64,000 bases of DNA. Origin: Polaromonas sp. (lineage in GTDB: Bacteria; Pseudomonadota; Gammaproteobacteria; Burkholderiales; Burkholderiaceae). Below, one piece after another: positions 7,384 to 37,554 of the stretch (positions are counted from its first letter, which is position 1; each line of letters opens with the position of its first letter). A program made the position numbers and the translations under genes. The notes under the pieces are model-generated. The model worked only from the letters and a program-made list of their open reading frames with translations, was not told where the DNA came from and made no database searches. Location of the stretch: contig PNMH01000007.1 of the NCBI GenBank assembly GCA_013823505.1, positions 24,568 to 88,567 on the forward strand, in the 5' to 3' direction.

Positions 7384-7474
7384 TCCGCGCGCCTTCCTGT
7401 GGGACGTGCGGGAAACGGCTCTGGCCACGCAGATCAGGCCGCCACGGCCTCCGGCAGCTTCGCAATCACCTTGA
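7373..7474 (+). pseudogene. 5' stub of a HEPN (DUF86) toxin partner of MntA
   Basis: The ATG at 7373 overlaps the 3' end of the MNT gene, the normal arrangement for MNT-HEPN pairs. The first residues, MQRDPRAFLWDVRETALATQI, match the start of DUF86 proteins (M-x-R-D-x-R-x-L-x-D). After about codon 21 the frame runs into the tail of the RidA gene, giving a Pro-rich non-HEPN sequence and a stop at 7474. All HEPN catalytic residues are absent. The break near 7434-7440 coincides with the RidA stop codon, suggesting a deletion or rearrangement junction there. Confidence 0.7.
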
Positions 7475-7838
7475 TCTCGACATCAAAGCCGTAGAGCCAG
7501 GTCACGCCCACGCCGGTGAGCGTGGGGTACGGGGCGTCGCCCCAGTGCTGGGTGAGCTCTGTCCAGATGGTTTCAAACTTGGGCTCGGGGTCGACGATGA
7601 ACACGGTCACGTCGACGACGTCCTTGAACGTACAGCCGGCGGCCGAGAGGATGGCGTTGAGGTTGTCGAACGCCAGCTTCACCTGGGCTTGCAGGTCGGG
7701 TTCGGGTGAACCATCGGGGCGGCTGCCCACCTGGCCCGAGACGAACAGGAAACCGTTGGAGCGGATCGCGGGCGAGTAGCGGTTTTTTTCATAGAGCGTC
7801 TGGCGCCCGGCCGGGAACACAACATCACGTGCAGACAT
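7434..7838 (-). CDS. RidA-family protein (enamine/imine deaminase-like)
   Basis: A 134-residue YjgF/YER057c/UK114-family protein. Recognisable stretches are YSPAIRSNGFLFVSGQVG (about 21-38), QVKLAFDNLNAILSAAGCTFKDVVDVTVFIVD (about 52-83) and the C-terminal VEIKVIAKLPE. RidA proteins form trimers and hydrolyse reactive imine/enamine intermediates from PLP enzymes. The usual arginine that binds the substrate carboxylate near the C-terminus (R-x-E motif in RidA) is not evident here (TWLYGFDVEIKVIA), so this is more likely one of the Rid1-7 subfamilies than classical RidA. It is divergent from the LysR gene, with a dyad between them, so it is a plausible LysR target. Confidence 0.85.
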   Translation of the reverse strand: MSARDVVFPAGRQTLYEKNRYSPAIRSNGFLFVSGQVGSRPDGSPEPDLQAQVKLAFDNLNAILSAAGCTFKDVVDVTVFIVDPEPKFETIWTELTQHWGDAPYPTLTGVGVTWLYGFDVEIKVIAKLPEAVAA

Positions 7839-7920
7839 GCAAATACCTCTGGGTGGGTGGGGAGTGGGTTCACTCTAGGCATTCACGGCCTGCGGATAAA
7901 CAGGCCAGTCGCACAATGAC

Positions 7921-7939
7921 TGTTTGGCATTTCCAAACA
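7921..7939. promoter_or_regulatory. LysR-type operator dyad between RidA and LysR genes
   Basis: TGTTTGG-catttt-like 5-nt spacer-CCAAACA: perfect 7-bp arms (7921-7927 and 7933-7939) separated by 5 bp. The T-N11-A pattern of LysR boxes is met. It sits 25 bp upstream of the LysR start and about 80 bp upstream of the divergent RidA start, the classical place for autoregulation and divergent activation. Confidence 0.65.
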
Positions 7940-7963
7940 ATCAAACCGGTGCGAGGAGCCGAC

Positions 7964-8899
7964 ATGGACCGTTTCGATGCGATGCAGGCCTTTGCCCGCG
8001 TGGTGGAAGCCGGCAGCTTCACCAAGGCGGCACAGACGCTGCACATGAGCAAGACCACGGTGACGCAACTGGTGCAGCAACTGGAGGCGCGGCTGCGCGT
8101 GAAGCTGCTGAACCGCACCACGCGGCAGGTGAAGGTGACGGCCGATGGCGCCGCGTATTACGAGCGCGTGGTGCGCCTGCTGGCCGACATGGAGGACGCG
8201 GACACCAGCCTCTCCAGCGCCGTGGCCTCGCCGCGCGGGCGTCTGCGGGTGGACGTGCCCAGCCCGCTGGCCCGCCTGATCCTGATGCCGGCGCTGCCGG
8301 CGTTTCACGCGCGCTACCCCGACATAGAACTGCACATGGGCGTGAGCGACCGCATGGTGGACCTGATCGGCGACAACGTGGACTGCGTGCTGCGCGGCGG
8401 CGAGATCACCGACCCGTCGTTGATCGCCCGCCACGTGGGCGACTTGCCAATCGGCGTGTACGCGGCACCAAGCTACCTGCAGCGCGCCGGCACGCCGCTG
8501 CACCCAGCTGAGCTGGAAGACACCCACCACCGCACGGTGGGCTACCTGCGCGCGCGCAGCGGCACGGTGGCGCCCATGAGCATGCAACGCGATGGCGAAC
8601 GCTTCACGGCGCAGGGCCGCCATGTGGTGGCGGTGGACGACGGCAACGCCTACCTCGCGGCCGGCGTGGCGGGCATGGGCGTGCTGTGGCTGCCGCAGTA
8701 CATGGCCCGCGACCACGCAGCGCGCGGTGAGCTGGTGCCGCTGTTCGACGGCTGGCACGTCGATGCCATGCCGATGTACGTGGCCTTCCCGCCGAACCGC
8801 CATGTGAGTGCGAAACTGCGGGCCTTCATCGACTGGGTAGTGGAGCTGATGGCGGTGCATGCGCCGCTGGCTTCGCGGCCTGGCAACCCCCCATCTTGA
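7964..8899 (+). CDS. LysR-family transcriptional regulator
   Basis: A 311-residue regulator. The ATG at 7964 follows GAGGAG (7953-7958). The N-terminal winged helix-turn-helix is clear: MDRFDAMQAFARVVEAGSF, then TKAAQTLHMSKTTVTQLVQQLEARL. The C-terminal part (about 90-295) is a LysR substrate-binding domain of the CrgA/DmlR-like group (RGRLRVDVPSPLARLILMPALP). The effector is unknown. It is divergent from RidA, and its stop abuts the start of the flavin-binding protein gene, so the two may be cotranscribed. Confidence 0.93.
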   Translation: MDRFDAMQAFARVVEAGSFTKAAQTLHMSKTTVTQLVQQLEARLRVKLLNRTTRQVKVTADGAAYYERVVRLLADMEDADTSLSSAVASPRGRLRVDVPSPLARLILMPALPAFHARYPDIELHMGVSDRMVDLIGDNVDCVLRGGEITDPSLIARHVGDLPIGVYAAPSYLQRAGTPLHPAELEDTHHRTVGYLRARSGTVAPMSMQRDGERFTAQGRHVVAVDDGNAYLAAGVAGMGVLWLPQYMARDHAARGELVPLFDGWHVDAMPMYVAFPPNRHVSAKLRAFIDWVVELMAVHAPLASRPGNPPS

Positions 8900-29714: not shown

Positions 29715-30710
29715 TCAGGCTGTGCAGGCCTGAGGCTCTGTCTGCCGATGCAGCCAGGCTTCGATATGCGCTGGCTCGTTGAAGAGGCGCAGATCGTCGT
29801 AGGCCTGTTGCGCTTCGGGGTAACGCTTGCGCAGGTAGTTGAGCCATTGTTTGAGGCGTCCGGCGCGGTGGCGGCGCTCCACATGTGCGCTCACCTGCTG
29901 CCAGAAGATCTGAAGCAGTGGGGGCAACACCTCCCAAGCCACGCCACCCTGCCCCTTGATGGCGAGCGCCAGACCGGGGTCGGTGACCATGCCGCGCCCG
30001 ATCATGAGGTGTTCGCAGCCGGTCACTTCGCGGCAGCGCGCGGCGTCGGCCACGGTCCAGATCTCGCCGTTGGCGATGACCGGCAGGCGCAAGTGGGGTG
30101 GCAATGACTGGCGCACCTCGGCGAGCCGGTCCCAGTAGGCCGGCGGCCGGTAGCCGTGGGCCTTGGTGCGCGCGTGGATCACGAGTTCGTCGGCACCGGC
30201 TTCGGCAATGGCGTGGGCGCACTCTTCAGCGCGCAGATCGTCGTTGAAGCCCAGCCGCATCTTGGCCGACACGGGAACATGGGCCGGCACGGCGCGGCGC
30301 ACGGCGGCCACGATGCGGCCGATGAGTTCGGGCTCGTCGAGCAGCACGGCGCCGCCGCGGCTCTGGTTGACGGTTTTGGCGGGGCAGCCAAAGTTGAGGT
30401 CGATGCCGTGCGGGCCGAGGCCGGCGAGTCGCTCGGCGTTTTCAGCGAGGCAGCCCGGGTCGGAGCCCAGCAGTTGCGCACGAACCGGCACGCCCGCGCG
30501 GGTGCGGCCACCGTTGAGCAGTTCGGGCACGACGCGCACGAACACGCGCTCGGGCAGGAGCATGTCGGTGACGCGGATGAATTCGCTCACGCATCGGTCG
30601 ATGCCACCGGTGCGCGTGAGCACATCGCGCAGGGTGGCGTCGAGCAAACCTTCCATGGGGGCGAGCAACAGCATGGGGGTATTGTCCTTTGCTTGGACAA
30701 TCGCCTTCAT
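29715..30710 (-). CDS. dusC: tRNA-dihydrouridine synthase, DusC-like
   Basis: 331 residues from ATG at 30710, or 319 from ATG at 30674 (MLLLAPMEGLLDATLRD), which is the start most like E. coli DusC. FMN-barrel motifs: LLLAPMEG, VSEFIRVT, LGPHGIDLNFGCPAKTVNQSRGGAVLL (the catalytic Cys lies in FGCPAKTVN), VSAKMRLGFND, and IGRGMVTDPGLA. DusC reduces U16 of tRNAs in E. coli. A dyad (30681-30701) falls between the two possible starts. The leader holds one copy of a nested palindromic element in sense. Confidence 0.92.
   Translation of the reverse strand: MKAIVQAKDNTPMLLLAPMEGLLDATLRDVLTRTGGIDRCVSEFIRVTDMLLPERVFVRVVPELLNGGRTRAGVPVRAQLLGSDPGCLAENAERLAGLGPHGIDLNFGCPAKTVNQSRGGAVLLDEPELIGRIVAAVRRAVPAHVPVSAKMRLGFNDDLRAEECAHAIAEAGADELVIHARTKAHGYRPPAYWDRLAEVRQSLPPHLRLPVIANGEIWTVADAARCREVTGCEHLMIGRGMVTDPGLALAIKGQGGVAWEVLPPLLQIFWQQVSAHVERRHRAGRLKQWLNYLRKRYPEAQQAYDDLRLFNEPAHIEAWLHRQTEPQACTA
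30681..30701. repeat. Dyad between the two candidate dusC starts
   Basis: ATTGTCC-tttgctt-GGACAAT: perfect 7-bp arms, 7-nt spacer. If translation starts at 30674 this is an operator or leader hairpin directly before the start; otherwise it is coding. Confidence 0.5.
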
Positions 30711-30740
30711 GGCTTGCTTTCTTTCTCCGGCGGGTCCGGT

Positions 30741-30840
30741 CATCGGCGACCGGGCGGAACGCCTCCGCGAATGTCCCCCGGGGCGGCTTTGCCGCCCCTC
30801 CTCCTTTATTTCGCTGCGGCGTTCCACCCGATCGCCGATG
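30741..30840 (-). repeat. Nested palindromic element, copy 1 (candidate structured leader RNA of dusC)
   Basis: Read on the minus strand: outer arm 30840-30818, core GCGAAATAAAGGAGGAG, an inner hairpin (GGGGCGGC-aaa-GCCGCCCC), then CGGGGGACATTCGCGGAG, and closing arm 30763-30741. The outer arms are 23 bp with two non-Watson-Crick positions. Both are G-U pairs on the minus strand and C-A clashes on the plus strand, so structure is favoured in the dusC-sense transcript. The core contains a strong Shine-Dalgarno-like AAAGGAGGAG with no start codon close behind it. Confidence 0.6.
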
Positions 30841-30884
30841 ACCTCGTTGGAGCGCGAACGGTTGCATGCCTCCATCACTTCAGG

Positions 30885-30989
30885 CTCGCGGGCGCACGGC
30901 GCTCTGCGCAGCGAAATAAAGGAGGAGGCGGCACCAGCCGCCGGGGGACATTCGCGGAGCAGAGCGCCGTGCGTCCTCGAGCCCGCGAG
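30885..30989 (+). repeat. Nested palindromic element, copy 2 (candidate structured leader RNA of the RluA-family gene)
   Basis: Read on the plus strand: outer arm 30885-30905, core GCGAAATAAAGGAGGAG, inner hairpin GGCGGC-acca-GCCGCC, then CGGGGGACATTCGCGGAG, and closing arm in two blocks (30961-30972 and 30981-30989). The conserved core is the same as copy 1, but outer and inner stems have different sequences that still pair, which is covariation. The last arm overlaps the GAGG (30987-30990) that serves as ribosome-binding site for the GTG at 30996. Confidence 0.6.
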
Positions 30990-30995
30990 GTCGCT

Positions 30996-31643
30996 GTGAG
31001 CAATGTCCTTCTGGTCCACGAAGACCCAAAATTCCTCGTACTGGAAAAACCCGCAGGCTTGCTGGCCGTCCCAGGCAAAGGTCCCGACAAACAAGACTGC
31101 CTGAGCACCAGAGCCCAAGCCCGATGGGCCGACGCCCTCGTCGTCCACCGGCTCGACATGGCCACCTCCGGCCTCGTGGTCGTGGCACGAGGCATCGAAG
31201 CACAACGCACGCTCAGCCTCGCATTTGAAGAACGCCGCGTGCACAAACGCTACACCGCCGTGGTCGCCGGTGAACTCGTCAACCCCCAAGCAGACAACGG
31301 CTGGAACACCATCGACCTGCCGCTGATGGCCGACTGGCCCAACCGGCCGCTGCAAAAGGTGGACCACGCACACGGCAAACCCAGCATCACCCGCTGGCGC
31401 ATCGCTCCGGGCCAAACACCCCCCGGCACCACCCGCCTCGAACTTGAACCCGTGACCGGGCGCACCCACCAGCTGCGCGTGCACCTGCAAGCCCTTGGAC
31501 ACCCCATGGTTGGCGATGCGCTGTACGCTGCGCCCGACGTCGTTGCCATGGCCAACCGCCTACTGCTGCACGCCCACTGGCTCTCGTTGCCACACCCCTT
31601 CCATGGCCAGACCATGGCGTTCCACAGTCCCTGCCCTTTCTGA
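30996..31643 (+). CDS. RluA-family RNA pseudouridine synthase
   Basis: 215 residues from GTG at 30996, with GAGG five bases upstream. Motifs are FLVLEKPAGLLAVPG (about 11-25), the catalytic HRLDMATSGLVVVARG (Asp in HRLD), KRYTAVVAG, and LEPVTGRTHQLRVHLQALGHPMVGD. It lacks an S4 domain, like the short RluA/TruC-type enzymes; the target RNA is uncertain. The leader contains copy 2 of the nested element, whose closing stem would hide the ribosome-binding site. The SDR gene follows after 7 bp. Confidence 0.92.
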   Translation: MSNVLLVHEDPKFLVLEKPAGLLAVPGKGPDKQDCLSTRAQARWADALVVHRLDMATSGLVVVARGIEAQRTLSLAFEERRVHKRYTAVVAGELVNPQADNGWNTIDLPLMADWPNRPLQKVDHAHGKPSITRWRIAPGQTPPGTTRLELEPVTGRTHQLRVHLQALGHPMVGDALYAAPDVVAMANRLLLHAHWLSLPHPFHGQTMAFHSPCPF

Positions 31644-31650
31644 GCCCACC

Positions 31651-32424
31651 ATGACGCCACAACACCTCACCATCCTCACCGGCGCCTCGCGCGGCATGGG
31701 CCTGGCCATGGCCCGCCAGCTGCTCGACCCCACACGCCACCTGCTGTGCATCTCGCGCCAGGTCAACGACGCCCTGACCGAAGAAGCCAAGGCCCTCGGC
31801 GCTCCACTCACCCAGTGGTCGCAGGACCTCGCCGACACCACCGGCGCCGCCCACCGCCTGCAGGCGTTTCTTGAAAGCGTGCCCGCCAGCGCATGGTCCA
31901 GCGCCACGCTGATCAACAACGCCGGTGTGATCCCGCGCATCGGACCGCTGGACCAGTGCCCGCCCGACGACCTGGCCAACGCGCTGCGCGTGGGCCTGGA
32001 AGCACCGATGCAACTCACTGCGGCCTTTTTGCGCATCACAACCGCTTGGGTGGACGCGGGCTGGCGCGGGCCCCGCAAGGTGCTCAACATCTCTTCGGGC
32101 CTGGGCCGCAGCGCCATGGCCGCGCAGGCCCCTTACTGCGCCGCCAAGGCCGGCATGGACCACTTCACCCGGTGCAGTGCGCTCGACGAAGCCCACCGCG
32201 AGCACGGCGCGCGCCTGGTCTCGCTGGCGCCTGGCGTGATCGACACTGACATGCAGGTGCAGCTGCGCGCAGGCGACCCGGCGGCCTTCCCCGACCGCAG
32301 CCGGTTTGTGGAACTCCAGCGCCAGGGCCAGCTCACATCGCCCGACGCCGCGGCCGCGCGCATCCTGGCTTATCTGGACCGCGCCGACTTCGGCGAGCAG
32401 CCGGTGGCCGACGTGCGCGGCTGA
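31651..32424 (+). CDS. Short-chain dehydrogenase/reductase
   Basis: 257 residues. The Rossmann start is LTILTGASRGMGLAMARQLL (TGxxxGxG), the NAG motif is LINNAGVIPRIGPLD, and the catalytic residues are Ser in LNISSGLGRSAMAAQAPYCAAKAG with Tyr-x3-Lys (YCAAK). It resembles the benzil/sepiapterin reductase-like group; the substrate is unknown. It sits in a run of same-strand genes from 30996 to 33024. Confidence 0.92.
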   Translation: MTPQHLTILTGASRGMGLAMARQLLDPTRHLLCISRQVNDALTEEAKALGAPLTQWSQDLADTTGAAHRLQAFLESVPASAWSSATLINNAGVIPRIGPLDQCPPDDLANALRVGLEAPMQLTAAFLRITTAWVDAGWRGPRKVLNISSGLGRSAMAAQAPYCAAKAGMDHFTRCSALDEAHREHGARLVSLAPGVIDTDMQVQLRAGDPAAFPDRSRFVELQRQGQLTSPDAAAARILAYLDRADFGEQPVADVRG

Positions 32425-34380: not shown

Positions 34381-35715
34381 TTGCGCCACCGCCGCTGTTT
34401 CTTTTCCTGCCATCCAGTCCTCAGCGCCGTGCTCCTGGGCTGGCCCTTGCTGGCCCATGGGGATGCGCCTGCCCAGGCGCCAAGTGTGTTTGTGCCTCGC
34501 CCCAGCGGTTCGCCCCACAGCGCACGGCCGCCGAACGCGCTGTACCTGCACAACCGCCACATCGTCACCTTTCGCGCCACGCTGCTGGGGGACTCCCCCG
34601 CCGACCGGGTGGAATTGGCCAGCGCCGCGCTGTCCAACGCCCTGCAGGGCGAGCGCGCCACGGTGACGCAAAGCGCCACGCCGGATTCGGTGCGTTTCGA
34701 GCTGAACGGACGCACGGTGTTTTTTCTCGTGGCGGCCGACATGGGCGGGGCACGGCCCGAAACTGTGCTGGAGACCCGATCGCGCGAGGTGCAGGCGCAG
34801 CTGCAGAAAGCGGTGGCGGAGGCGTTGGAGCTGCGCGATCGTGTGCGCGTCGCGACCGATCTCTCGATCTGCCTCGGTGCGAGCTTGCTGGCCTGGCTGC
34901 TGGTGCGTTGCACCCTGCTGATGCGCGTGCGCATGGCCCAGTGGTTGCATGCGGCTTTGCATCGGCCGGCGGCCGCCCTCGCCTCCCGCCTGGCTGGCAC
35001 CTTTGCGGAGCACACGCATGTGGCCTGCCGGCTGTTGACCAATGTGGTGGCCCTGGCGCTTGTGCTGCTGATCCTGGACACCTGGGCCAGCTTCGTGCTG
35101 CTGCAGTTTGCCTGGACCCGGCCCTGGGGTGAGCAGTCATCCACCTGGTTGCTGGAGGTGCTGCGCCACTTCGCGAGTTCCACCGCCGCTGCGGTGCCCG
35201 GTCTGGTGGTGGCCTGTTTCATCGTCGTGATCGCGCGCATGGTGTCCCGGGCCAACGCGGCCTTCATGCACCGGGTGCAAAGCGGTGACATCCAGCTGGC
35301 CTGGCTTGACGCGCACACCGCCCAGCCAACGCGGCGCGTGTGCGATGTCGTGCTCTGGCTGTTCGCCGCGGCCATGGCCTACCCCTATCTGCCGGGTGCC
35401 GAAACCGAAGCCTTCAGGGCGCTCTCGGTCATGGCCGGCCTCATGCTCTCGCTGGGCGCCTCCAGCGCCGTGGGCCAGGCCCTGTCGGGCCTGAGCCTCA
35501 TGTACTCCCGCTCGCTGCGCGTGGGCCAACAGGAGAAAATCGGCGAGACCGAGGGCACCGTGGTCGCGCTGGGCATGTTCACCACGCGGCTGCGCAACGC
35601 CGCGGGCGAAGACGTGAGCCTGCCCAACAAACTGATCTTCGGCCTGCCGATCCGCCACCTGCTGCCGGAAGCGAACGAAGACCGCGGCGAACCGTCAGGC
35701 AAGGTCGTGCACTGA
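34381..35715 (+). CDS. MscS-like mechanosensitive channel, short paralogue lacking the C-terminal domain
   Basis: 444 residues from TTG at 34381, chosen for AAGGAG six bases upstream; GTG at 34378 or 34324 is possible. Signal peptide, then a periplasmic domain (LYLHNRHIVTFRATLLGD...), four membrane helices (about 160-185, 225-250, 265-295, 320-340) and the MscS pore/beta region: MAGLMLSLGASSAVGQALSGLSLMYSRSLRVG, then ETEGTVVALGMFTTRLRNAAGEDVSLPNKLIFG. It ends soon after this beta domain, whereas the tandem neighbour continues for over 110 more residues. Whether it gates alone or mixes with the neighbour is unknown. Confidence 0.85.
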   Translation: MRHRRCFFSCHPVLSAVLLGWPLLAHGDAPAQAPSVFVPRPSGSPHSARPPNALYLHNRHIVTFRATLLGDSPADRVELASAALSNALQGERATVTQSATPDSVRFELNGRTVFFLVAADMGGARPETVLETRSREVQAQLQKAVAEALELRDRVRVATDLSICLGASLLAWLLVRCTLLMRVRMAQWLHAALHRPAAALASRLAGTFAEHTHVACRLLTNVVALALVLLILDTWASFVLLQFAWTRPWGEQSSTWLLEVLRHFASSTAAAVPGLVVACFIVVIARMVSRANAAFMHRVQSGDIQLAWLDAHTAQPTRRVCDVVLWLFAAAMAYPYLPGAETEAFRALSVMAGLMLSLGASSAVGQALSGLSLMYSRSLRVGQQEKIGETEGTVVALGMFTTRLRNAAGEDVSLPNKLIFGLPIRHLLPEANEDRGEPSGKVVH

Positions 35716-35844: not shown

Positions 35845-37554
35845 TTGCCCAACCAACGACTCGCTGTCCGATGTGCCGCCTGGTGGCGGGTCCTGTTCTT
35901 TCTGTGTGTCGGCCTGTTGCCCCCCTGGCTGGGTGCACAGCCCCTGGACCTTCCAGTCACCGCGAACCGGCCGGGCGCTACAGCGCAAACCGCCGAGGGT
36001 CCCGACACCCTGTATCTCCACAACCGTCGCATTGCCACCTTTCGGGCCACCTTGCTGGGCGACGCGCCAGCCGAGCGCGTGCGGTTGGCCGAAGTAGCAC
36101 TGTCGCTGGCCTTGAAGGCCCCGGGGCCACGGGCGGTGAGCCAGACATCCACGGGCGATTCGGTGCGCTTCGAGGTGGACGGTCGCACGGTTTTTTTCCT
36201 CACGGCCGGTGATTCGGACGCGCCACGGCCCGAGGCCTCGCTGGAGCCGCTGGCGCGCGATGTGATGCTGCGGCTGGAGACCGCGGTGGCGGAATCGGCC
36301 GAGGTGCGCGACCCGCGCCGCATCGCGCTGGGTCTGGCGTTGTCGCTCGTGGCCACGCTGGCGGCCTGGCTGCTGGTGCGCGGCATCTTCCGCCTGCGCC
36401 GTCGCCTGGCCAGACGGGTGCGCGACGCGCTGCTGACGCCCAACGAGCCGGGCACTTCGGCCGCCCTGGTGTCCACCTACGCCGAACACGCGCGGGTGGC
36501 CTCCCGGCTGTTGATGGGTGCCGTGGCGTGGACGGTGGTGGTGTTGATCGTCGACGCCTGGGTCACCTTCGTGCTGCACCAGTTCGCCTGGACGCGGCCC
36601 TGGGGCGAGCGCTCGACCGCGTGGCTGCTGGAGGTGTTGCGCCAGTTCGCCGGCTCCATCGCGTCCGCGGTGCCCGGCCTGGTGGTGGCGGCCCTGATCT
36701 TTGTGATCGCGCGCATGGTCTCGCAGGCCAATGCGGCTTTCCTGCGCCGGGTGGAAAGCGGGGACATCGCGCTGGCCTGGCTCGACAGGGACACCGCCTC
36801 CCCCACCCGACGGCTGAGCAGCTTCGTGATCTGGTTGTTCGCGCTGGCCATGGCCTACCCCTACCTGCCCGGGGCCAACACCGAAGCGTTCAAGGCCCTG
36901 TCGGTCATGGCTGGCCTCATGCTGTCGCTCGGGGCCTCCAGCGTGGTGGGACAGGCGCTCTCCGGCCTGAGCCTCATGTATTCCCGCTCGCTGCGCGTCG
37001 GCGAATACGTGAAGATCGGTGACACCGAAGGCACGGTGACCAGCCTGGGGATGTTCACCACCAAGGTGCACACCGGGATGGGCGAAGAGGTGAGCCTGCC
37101 CAACAGCGTGACCTTCAGCCAGCCGATCCGCAACTTCTCGCGCCTCGTGGAGGACGGTCAGTTCATGCTGCAAACGGGTGTGACCATCGGCTACAGCACG
37201 CCCTGGCGGCAGGTGCACGCCATGCTGCTCGAGGCCGCCGAACGCACGCCCGGCGTGGCCGCGGAGCCCAGACCGTATGTGGTGCAAACGGCCCTGTCGG
37301 ACTTTTATGTGGAGTACCGCCTCTGCGCGCAAAGCAACAAGAACGCGCCGCGGCGTCGCGCCGAAGCGCTCAACCAGCTGCACGCCAACATCCTGGATGT
37401 GTTCAACGAAAACGGCGTGCAGATCATGTCGCCGCACTACCGGTCCGACCCACCCGAGCCGCAGGTGGTGCCGCAGGGCCCTTGGGCCTCACCGTCACCG
37501 GGCCAGCCGCTGTCGCCAGCGGGCACCGCCACGGCGCCGGCTCAGTCGCCCTGA
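35845..37554 (+). CDS. MscS-like mechanosensitive channel, full-length paralogue
   Basis: 569 residues from TTG at 35845. Same plan as the preceding gene over about 420 residues (periplasmic LYLHNRRIATFRATLLGD, RPWGER, AYPYLPGANTEAFKALSVMAGLMLSLGASSVVGQALSG), then a complete MscS cytoplasmic part (VGEYVKIGDTEGTVTSLGMF, LPNSVTFSQPIRNFSR, VQTALSDFYVEYRLCAQSNK) and a disordered Pro/Ala tail. The pair arose by tandem duplication. The protein releases solutes on hypo-osmotic shock by family analogy. Its 3' end overlaps the convergent dioxygenase gene by 13 bp. Confidence 0.92.
   Translation: MPNQRLAVRCAAWWRVLFFLCVGLLPPWLGAQPLDLPVTANRPGATAQTAEGPDTLYLHNRRIATFRATLLGDAPAERVRLAEVALSLALKAPGPRAVSQTSTGDSVRFEVDGRTVFFLTAGDSDAPRPEASLEPLARDVMLRLETAVAESAEVRDPRRIALGLALSLVATLAAWLLVRGIFRLRRRLARRVRDALLTPNEPGTSAALVSTYAEHARVASRLLMGAVAWTVVVLIVDAWVTFVLHQFAWTRPWGERSTAWLLEVLRQFAGSIASAVPGLVVAALIFVIARMVSQANAAFLRRVESGDIALAWLDRDTASPTRRLSSFVIWLFALAMAYPYLPGANTEAFKALSVMAGLMLSLGASSVVGQALSGLSLMYSRSLRVGEYVKIGDTEGTVTSLGMFTTKVHTGMGEEVSLPNSVTFSQPIRNFSRLVEDGQFMLQTGVTIGYSTPWRQVHAMLLEAAERTPGVAAEPRPYVVQTALSDFYVEYRLCAQSNKNAPRRRAEALNQLHANILDVFNENGVQIMSPHYRSDPPEPQVVPQGPWASPSPGQPLSPAGTATAPAQSP

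Follow-up and report, generated by a model that had tools for sequence, protein, structure and literature searches.

A divergent pair of nested hairpins, scattered between genes in Variovorax, Polaromonas and their relatives, may be a REPIN-like mobile repeat that can bracket anti-phage systems

The window analysed here, a 64-kb stretch of a Polaromonas sp. contig, carries a pair of divergent nested hairpins in the spacer between two genes, each hairpin in sense to, and directly upstream of, its neighbouring gene. An earlier note, made from the letters alone, had called the neighbours dusC and an RluA-family synthase gene; these are indeed their best NCBIfam matches, although neither reaches its curated cut-off (297 bits where 395 are required, and 201 where 286 are). 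It had also recognised the nested hairpins correctly, but the true unit is longer than it had drawn: matches to other copies end near 30718 and 30991, and the two hairpins are therefore halves of one element (30718-30991; the ends are approximate, and mark how far numerous copies in the genus sample resemble it, at 919-1192 of a query covering window positions 29800-31900). Elsewhere in the window, two MscS-type channel genes lie adjacent to one another (34486-35715 and 36052-37554), the first being the shorter (409 versus 500 aa).

Each hairpin combines a long outer stem and a core stem of 5 bp with a purine-rich internal loop and an inner hairpin that varies between copies. On the dusC side, copy 1 occupies 30738-30842 of the minus strand, with its 5' core block GCGAAATAAAGGAGGAG at 30798-30814, its inner hairpin at 30780-30798 and its 3' core block CGGGGGACATTCGCGGAG at 30763-30780. 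A spacer at 30843-30882, defined as the interval between matches to our covariance model R1, separates it from copy 2 on the rluA side, which lies on the plus strand at 30883-30984, with the corresponding parts at 30911-30927, 30927-30942 and 30942-30959. The core blocks are exact pattern matches and the inner hairpins are taken from the fold. Model R1 scores copy 1 at 97.0 bits (E 2.3e-18) and copy 2 at 97.8 bits (E 1.6e-18), scores that are not independent, as both copies belong to its training set. The core blocks are identical between the two hairpins, and the arm sequences differ with pairing retained. Each block occurs exactly twice in the window, with no further occurrence there at up to three mismatches; 0.08 occurrences of GCGAAATAAAGGAGGAG and 0.11 of CGGGGGACATTCGCGGAG are expected by chance, and two or more copies of either were found in 0 of 100 shuffles.

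Both hairpins fold far better than shuffled sequence. Copy 1 reaches -83.9 kcal/mol on the minus strand (z -12.3) against -75.4 on the opposite strand (z -9.4), and copy 2 reaches -75.1 on the plus strand (z -7.2) against -74.2 (z -7.8); judging from these two copies alone, a clear strand difference is seen in copy 1 only. There, as had been pointed out, the two imperfect positions form G-U pairs on the dusC-sense strand only, and the opposite strand shows two interior mismatches. No Rfam 15 family matches the window at its gathering threshold, and relaxed thresholds give only weak hits, mostly to miRNA models, which arise from the long stems.

The covariation that had been read from the two window stems holds among diverse copies. 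Model R1 was made from 36 non-redundant copies minus three whose arms are rearranged (L055, L102 and L143), which leaves 33. In these 33, 94.6% of cells pair at the proposed positions, against 35-41% with the partner shifted by one to three columns; both sides change in 26 of 30 pairs, and the covariation score is 0.796 against 0.10-0.16 for the shifted controls, a comparison that favours the proposed pairing because this alignment also supplied the structure. Strand information comes from the arm mismatches. Among 326 distinct copies found by their core alone, mismatches on the strand that reads GGAGGAG comprise 649 G.T, 44 A.C and 287 others; the same count in a set of 61 non-redundant copies, picked from those whose arms pair well, gives 113, 7 and 34. 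The G.T bias is present in both halves of the element despite their lying on opposite DNA strands. Had the other strand, or double-stranded DNA, been the folded form, the bias would not arise; it is thus the fold of the GGAGGAG strand that has been under selection. For the same reason, an anti-Shine-Dalgarno small RNA read from the opposite strand, the second option of the earlier note, is disfavoured. Template-switch repair was considered as the source of the perfect arms and set aside, as it ought not to yield 649 G.T against 44 A.C.

Most copies carry GGAGGAG ahead of the inner hairpin, and some have GGGGGCAT in its place. One pair of positions in the core loop changes in concert over the 326 copies (A.G 259, G.A 52, A.A 8, C.G 4, G.G 2, T.G 1). 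Judged from this concerted swap, the loop that looks unpaired is probably structured as well.

Many related bacteria carry the element, dispersed over their intergenic spacers. A pattern scan of a collection of species genomes returned at least 119 stretches; the 119 listed come mostly from Variovorax, and also from Rhodoferax, Hydrogenophaga, Ramlibacter, Pseudorhodoferax, Polaromonas, Xylophilus, Rubrivivax and unplaced Burkholderiales bins. Two are from bins labelled Thermomonas and Stagnimonas, outside this group, the labels being those of bins only. Thirteen genomes hold 168, 73, 42, 17 and 6; 128, 71 and 53; and 14, 11, 9, 2 and 0 copies of the exact core, a pattern that undercounts (genome G128 has 0 exact matches and 19 model matches). 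With the covariance model under strict filters, the element is found in 93 of 200 genomes of the family. The strict pattern found none in viral contigs; the sole relaxed hit (L123) needs four core mismatches and has dissimilar arms.

The first loci examined hold 189 copies. They form 61 close pairs, every one of them divergent, and in 57 of the 61 the cores are 95-111 bp apart, a bare pair measuring 260-275 bp. The other 67 copies are without a recognised partner (L123 is one of them, and was excluded from the arm-mismatch and core-swap counts). Two solo copies, L258 and L268, retain beside them what seems to be the stump of a partner lost by deletion. The halves of the element bear different arm families in Variovorax, as judged by eye. 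Three copies of one metagenome bin (L032:1246-1283, L091:2343-2380 and the region of L106:6291-6268) have a 5' arm of one type and a 3' arm of the other, by recombination between halves or as an assembly artefact. One genome carries tandemly doubled pairs in the order -+-+ with a period of about 336 bp (L276:2919-3509 and L341:1798-2389). No excess of wide -/+ over +/- neighbours was seen by eye in one complete genome.

The surroundings of the element are not those of a regulator of RNA-modification genes. With gene calls from a purpose-made simple codon-usage caller (the names of the neighbours of site H1, below, and of those of the Y1 gene come from reading translations), 97 element-bearing spacers comprise 60 co-directional, 34 convergent and 3 divergent ones, where the lengths of element-free spacers predict 54%, 13% and 33%; the deficit of divergent spacers has a binomial probability of 4e-13. 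Of 116 paired hairpins with both neighbours called, 41 read into the start of the next gene. The earlier note had named copies mostly between convergent genes or in random orientation as telling against its own proposal and for a REP-like mobile repeat, and by that standard the proposal largely fails; an already catalogued RNA family, its other counter-indication, did not turn up at the Rfam gathering score.

Copies come and go between strains. At the L056 locus, one Variovorax carries an insertion that the 24 other orthologous spacers in the alignment, 33-208 bp long, lack (26 of 31 loci passed the two-flank filter, two of them being the same G001 locus; G302, with about 1.5 kb of other DNA and no hairpin at the site, was excluded). 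Similarity between copies ends sharply about 35-37 nt past the core, in the 100 of 161 Variovorax-like copies that could be classed. No target duplication was detected in 79 pairs, the longest flanking direct repeat averaging 4.19 against 4.26 in shuffled pairings. Decay by palindrome deletion is visible at the dusC/rluA spacer itself, where 7 of 12 aligned genomes, the window included, keep both hairpins and 5 of 12 have lost one or both; arm differences among the orthologues that keep both appear compensatory by eye.

Of the earlier note's interpretation, a conserved, structured nucleic acid with covarying stems is supported. A first rival explanation is a functional structured RNA of about 100 nt, repeated by chance: a 3'-end or small RNA, transcribed outward or through read-through, and serving mRNA-end protection, termination or protein binding through its purine-rich loop. 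The strand-specific covariation with its G-U wobbles, the coupled loop position and the placement 3' of genes are what such an RNA would leave. Against a fixed role speak the presence and absence of copies between strains and their frequent decay; moreover, a simple consensus scan around the copy in the window found nothing resembling a promoter or a terminator, and Rfam has no match. We consider this explanation unlikely, and still within reason.

In Variovorax, the same divergent hairpin pair also occurs with its members 2-10 kb apart, bracketing variable DNA at recurrent sites. The enclosed DNA is of lower GC content, 0.57 against 0.68 in L321 and, at the weak end, 0.62 against 0.66 in L315. 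Many large forms share a left end of about 745 bp, consisting of a hairpin and about 640 bp with a small ORF that has no Pfam, PADLOC or NCBIfam match. A database search with this left end gave 133 relatives at E <= 0.001; among the 120 listed, the organism is Variovorax wherever it is named, and a function is given for none.

Two sites illustrate the polymorphism. The first, H1, is flanked by a nitronate-monooxygenase-like gene on one side and a TRAP transporter on the other. In the 16 loci with both flanks (the left flank is missing in 4 of 20), both hairpins are present in six, with spacers of 2.4-10.2 kb (L277, L122, L302, L315, L316 and L336); L335 and L301 have one hairpin, L334 a lone weak remnant (47.5 bits) and L314 none; five loci are empty (79-144 bp), and L357 holds 2.1 kb and no hairpin. 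At the second site, H2, eight genomes have the left-end block and the right flank on a single contig, separated by 2.3-8.2 kb, with both hairpins in four (L321, L324, L328 and L333) and one hairpin in the other four (L320, L326, L329 and L363); G001, where both parts occur in discordant orientation, was excluded. Eight other loci with the H2 right flank (L364-L371) have no hairpin within 2.9-4.9 kb on that side.

Whole anti-phage systems are among the cargo. By PADLOC, a Gabija system (GajA 1.3e-271, GajB 6.8e-239) lies between two hairpins in L316, a Lamassu system (LmuA 1.8e-227, LmuB 2.4e-211) in L328 and an OLD-type protein (2.7e-26) in L122, and DRT8 (1.5e-148) and Lamassu (LmuA 1.2e-80, LmuB 1.6e-161) occur in L335, where one hairpin is left; these loci had been picked by their hairpins or by homology to one left end, and the sample is biased accordingly. 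The cargo of L321 includes a TIR domain (Pfam, 1.8e-7), that of L257, from a genome of the family, an ORC-CDC6-like ATPase and an uncharacterised protein, and in a Xylophilus (L044) hairpins 0.65 kb apart flank a single DUF2306 gene. The remaining large units hold small genes, metabolic or without known function.

Some cargo recurs with and without hairpins. Copies, 92-97% identical, of a 2.2-kb block with a MocR-type regulator gene lie inside hairpin-bounded units at H1 (G299) and at H2 (G309) and adjoin the left-end block elsewhere in G312, G271 and G320; the block is also found without a hairpin in G306 (L300). Cargo blocks with DUF1993 and GreA-like genes likewise occur at other chromosomal places with sharp boundaries; these single-gene blocks (L277:4383-5159 and 7469-8028; loci L297-L313) mostly have no hairpin nearby. 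Hairpins are absent from 13 of the 20 regions fetched around cargo blocks. Such occurrences indicate that cargo can travel by another route, and they slightly lower the odds of both the REPIN-like and the cassette readings set out below. At several junctions between cargo genes, a degenerate motif resembling TGTCCGGTTnTGGCCGA is seen (L325:2369-5556, L320:13509-16958 and L301:9261-12694), possibly another cassette boundary.

Cargo exchange could also be explained with the hairpins as portable homology and nothing more, the cargo being swapped by homologous recombination and the hairpins themselves spreading only rarely, by a route that this explanation does not specify. Dozens of similar copies per genome would offer ample substrate, and the MocR block in hairpin-bounded units at different sites is as expected. 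One site reads hairpin, 2.1 kb, full pair, an arrangement that fits hairpin-moved cargo and homologous recombination alike. The selection on a one-strand fold and the spread of compact pairs free of cargo are left unexplained, and we regard portable homology alone as rather improbable.

A third possibility is that the element is a MITE of a cut-and-paste (DDE) transposase, or that the large forms are integron-like cassettes with the hairpins as attachment sites. Like MITEs, it is short and non-coding, with inverted ends and polymorphic insertions; as in integron cassettes and defence hotspots, small exchangeable genes and defence systems are found in modular order at recurrent sites, and the cargo blocks are sharply bounded. 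In contrast to DDE-type MITEs, no target duplication accompanies the 79 pairs. Classical attC boxes were not found either: a search of 18 cargo regions on both strands, 36 scans in all, for paired RYYYAAC/GTTRRRY boxes gave three isolated hits, and the hairpins stand, divergent, at the outer ends. Finally, no transposase or integrase is among the best 25 of 47 Pfam families in the cargo, represented by 95 ORFs of 120 aa or more, which were drawn from 19 regions and include some that are surely spurious. Both variants are highly unlikely on these grounds.

A common cis-regulatory RNA of dusC and rluA, the first proposal of the earlier note (its alternative being the anti-Shine-Dalgarno small RNA from the other strand), agrees with the position of the window hairpins, each in sense to and just upstream of a gene, and can hardly be right given DusC or RluA homologues in 0 of 122 other loci, divergent spacers in 3 of 97, hairpins damaged in 5 of 12 orthologous spacers and selection on the GGAGGAG strand.

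The explanation that we favour, with a probability of about 0.5, is that of a REPIN-like mobile repeat recognised through its hairpins, whose large forms may act as exchangeable cassettes. The movement of REPINs is attributed to a single-copy Y1 (HUH) enzyme that acts on single-stranded hairpins, and REP palindromes carry an adjacent tag of the GTAG/GGAG type. With REP, BIME and REPIN-RAYT systems, our element shares high copy number, intergenic palindromes often in inverted pairs, and the lack of target duplication; with REPINs in particular, it shares a single Y1 gene in the genome (5 of 5 genomes), and the GGAG just 5' of the inner hairpin in most, though not all, copies may correspond to the tag. 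It differs in being much larger, a nested hairpin of about 100 nt against a conserved palindrome of about 20-40 bp, and in its arms, which vary freely across genera while pairing, the conserved part being the internal loop. The Y1 gene neither is flanked by the element nor tracks it, and the large forms with cargo are a further difference. Thus, that the element works like a REPIN is favoured; that it is a REPIN is not established.

We propose the following course of events. The window would hold a compact copy, two nested hairpins of about 100 nt diverging around a short spacer. A trans-acting enzyme would most likely recognise the folded GGAGGAG strand in the form of a single-stranded DNA hairpin, and would move the element without target duplication, in the manner ascribed to REP-associated HUH (Y1) transposases acting on REPINs. 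Cargo between the hairpins may then be moved because of them, and copies would decay through palindrome deletion. One point runs counter to this: a sense-only single-stranded intermediate would hold just one of the two inverted hairpins in the orientation kept by selection. As to the enzyme, a Y1 gene is single and in a conserved place in 5 of 5 genomes; its score, 74 of 80 bits, is under the NCBIfam cut-off for REP transposases. No element lies within about 1.5 kb of it in any of the five, and the element is present in 88 of 190 genomes with a Y1 match and in 5 of 10 without one. This gene is therefore unsupported as a proven mobiliser.

A bolder form of this reading can be put forward tentatively. 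The hairpin pairs may be the ends of a transposase-less, hairpin-recognised system of mobile cassettes in Comamonadaceae, in which a host enzyme would read the one-strand fold of each end and move either the bare pair of 260-275 bp or the pair with 2-10 kb of cargo, so that complete anti-phage systems (Gabija, Lamassu, DRT8, OLD) would be exchanged between dozens of sites already in place. We consider this version doubtful.

No description of the element was found in the literature, apart from that of a possibly related repeat, the Beta-proteobacterial repeat element or BRE. In the section on it, BRE is described as about 90 bp long, intergenic, GC-rich and structured, occurring in Bordetella and several genera of Comamonadaceae as tandem variable-number repeats, sometimes inside genes (PMC3110155). 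Inverted pairs or cargo are not described in that section, a comparison by description only (PMC3110155). In a term search of two further papers, one names Variovorax once, in another connection, and none of the related names (PMC2817692), and the other has none of the names looked for (PMC3733652).

The element is thus a high-copy repeat, with up to 168 cores per genome, that keeps a selected one-strand fold, matches no Rfam family and brackets whole anti-phage systems in Variovorax. The structure that is recognised can be tested directly, through the covarying arms and the coupled A.G/G.A position. Should the hairpins be the cause of the exchange, bacteria would have a new route for trading immunity genes that involves no obvious transposase. 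Should they not be causal, the large forms would still point to places in which to seek unknown defence systems.
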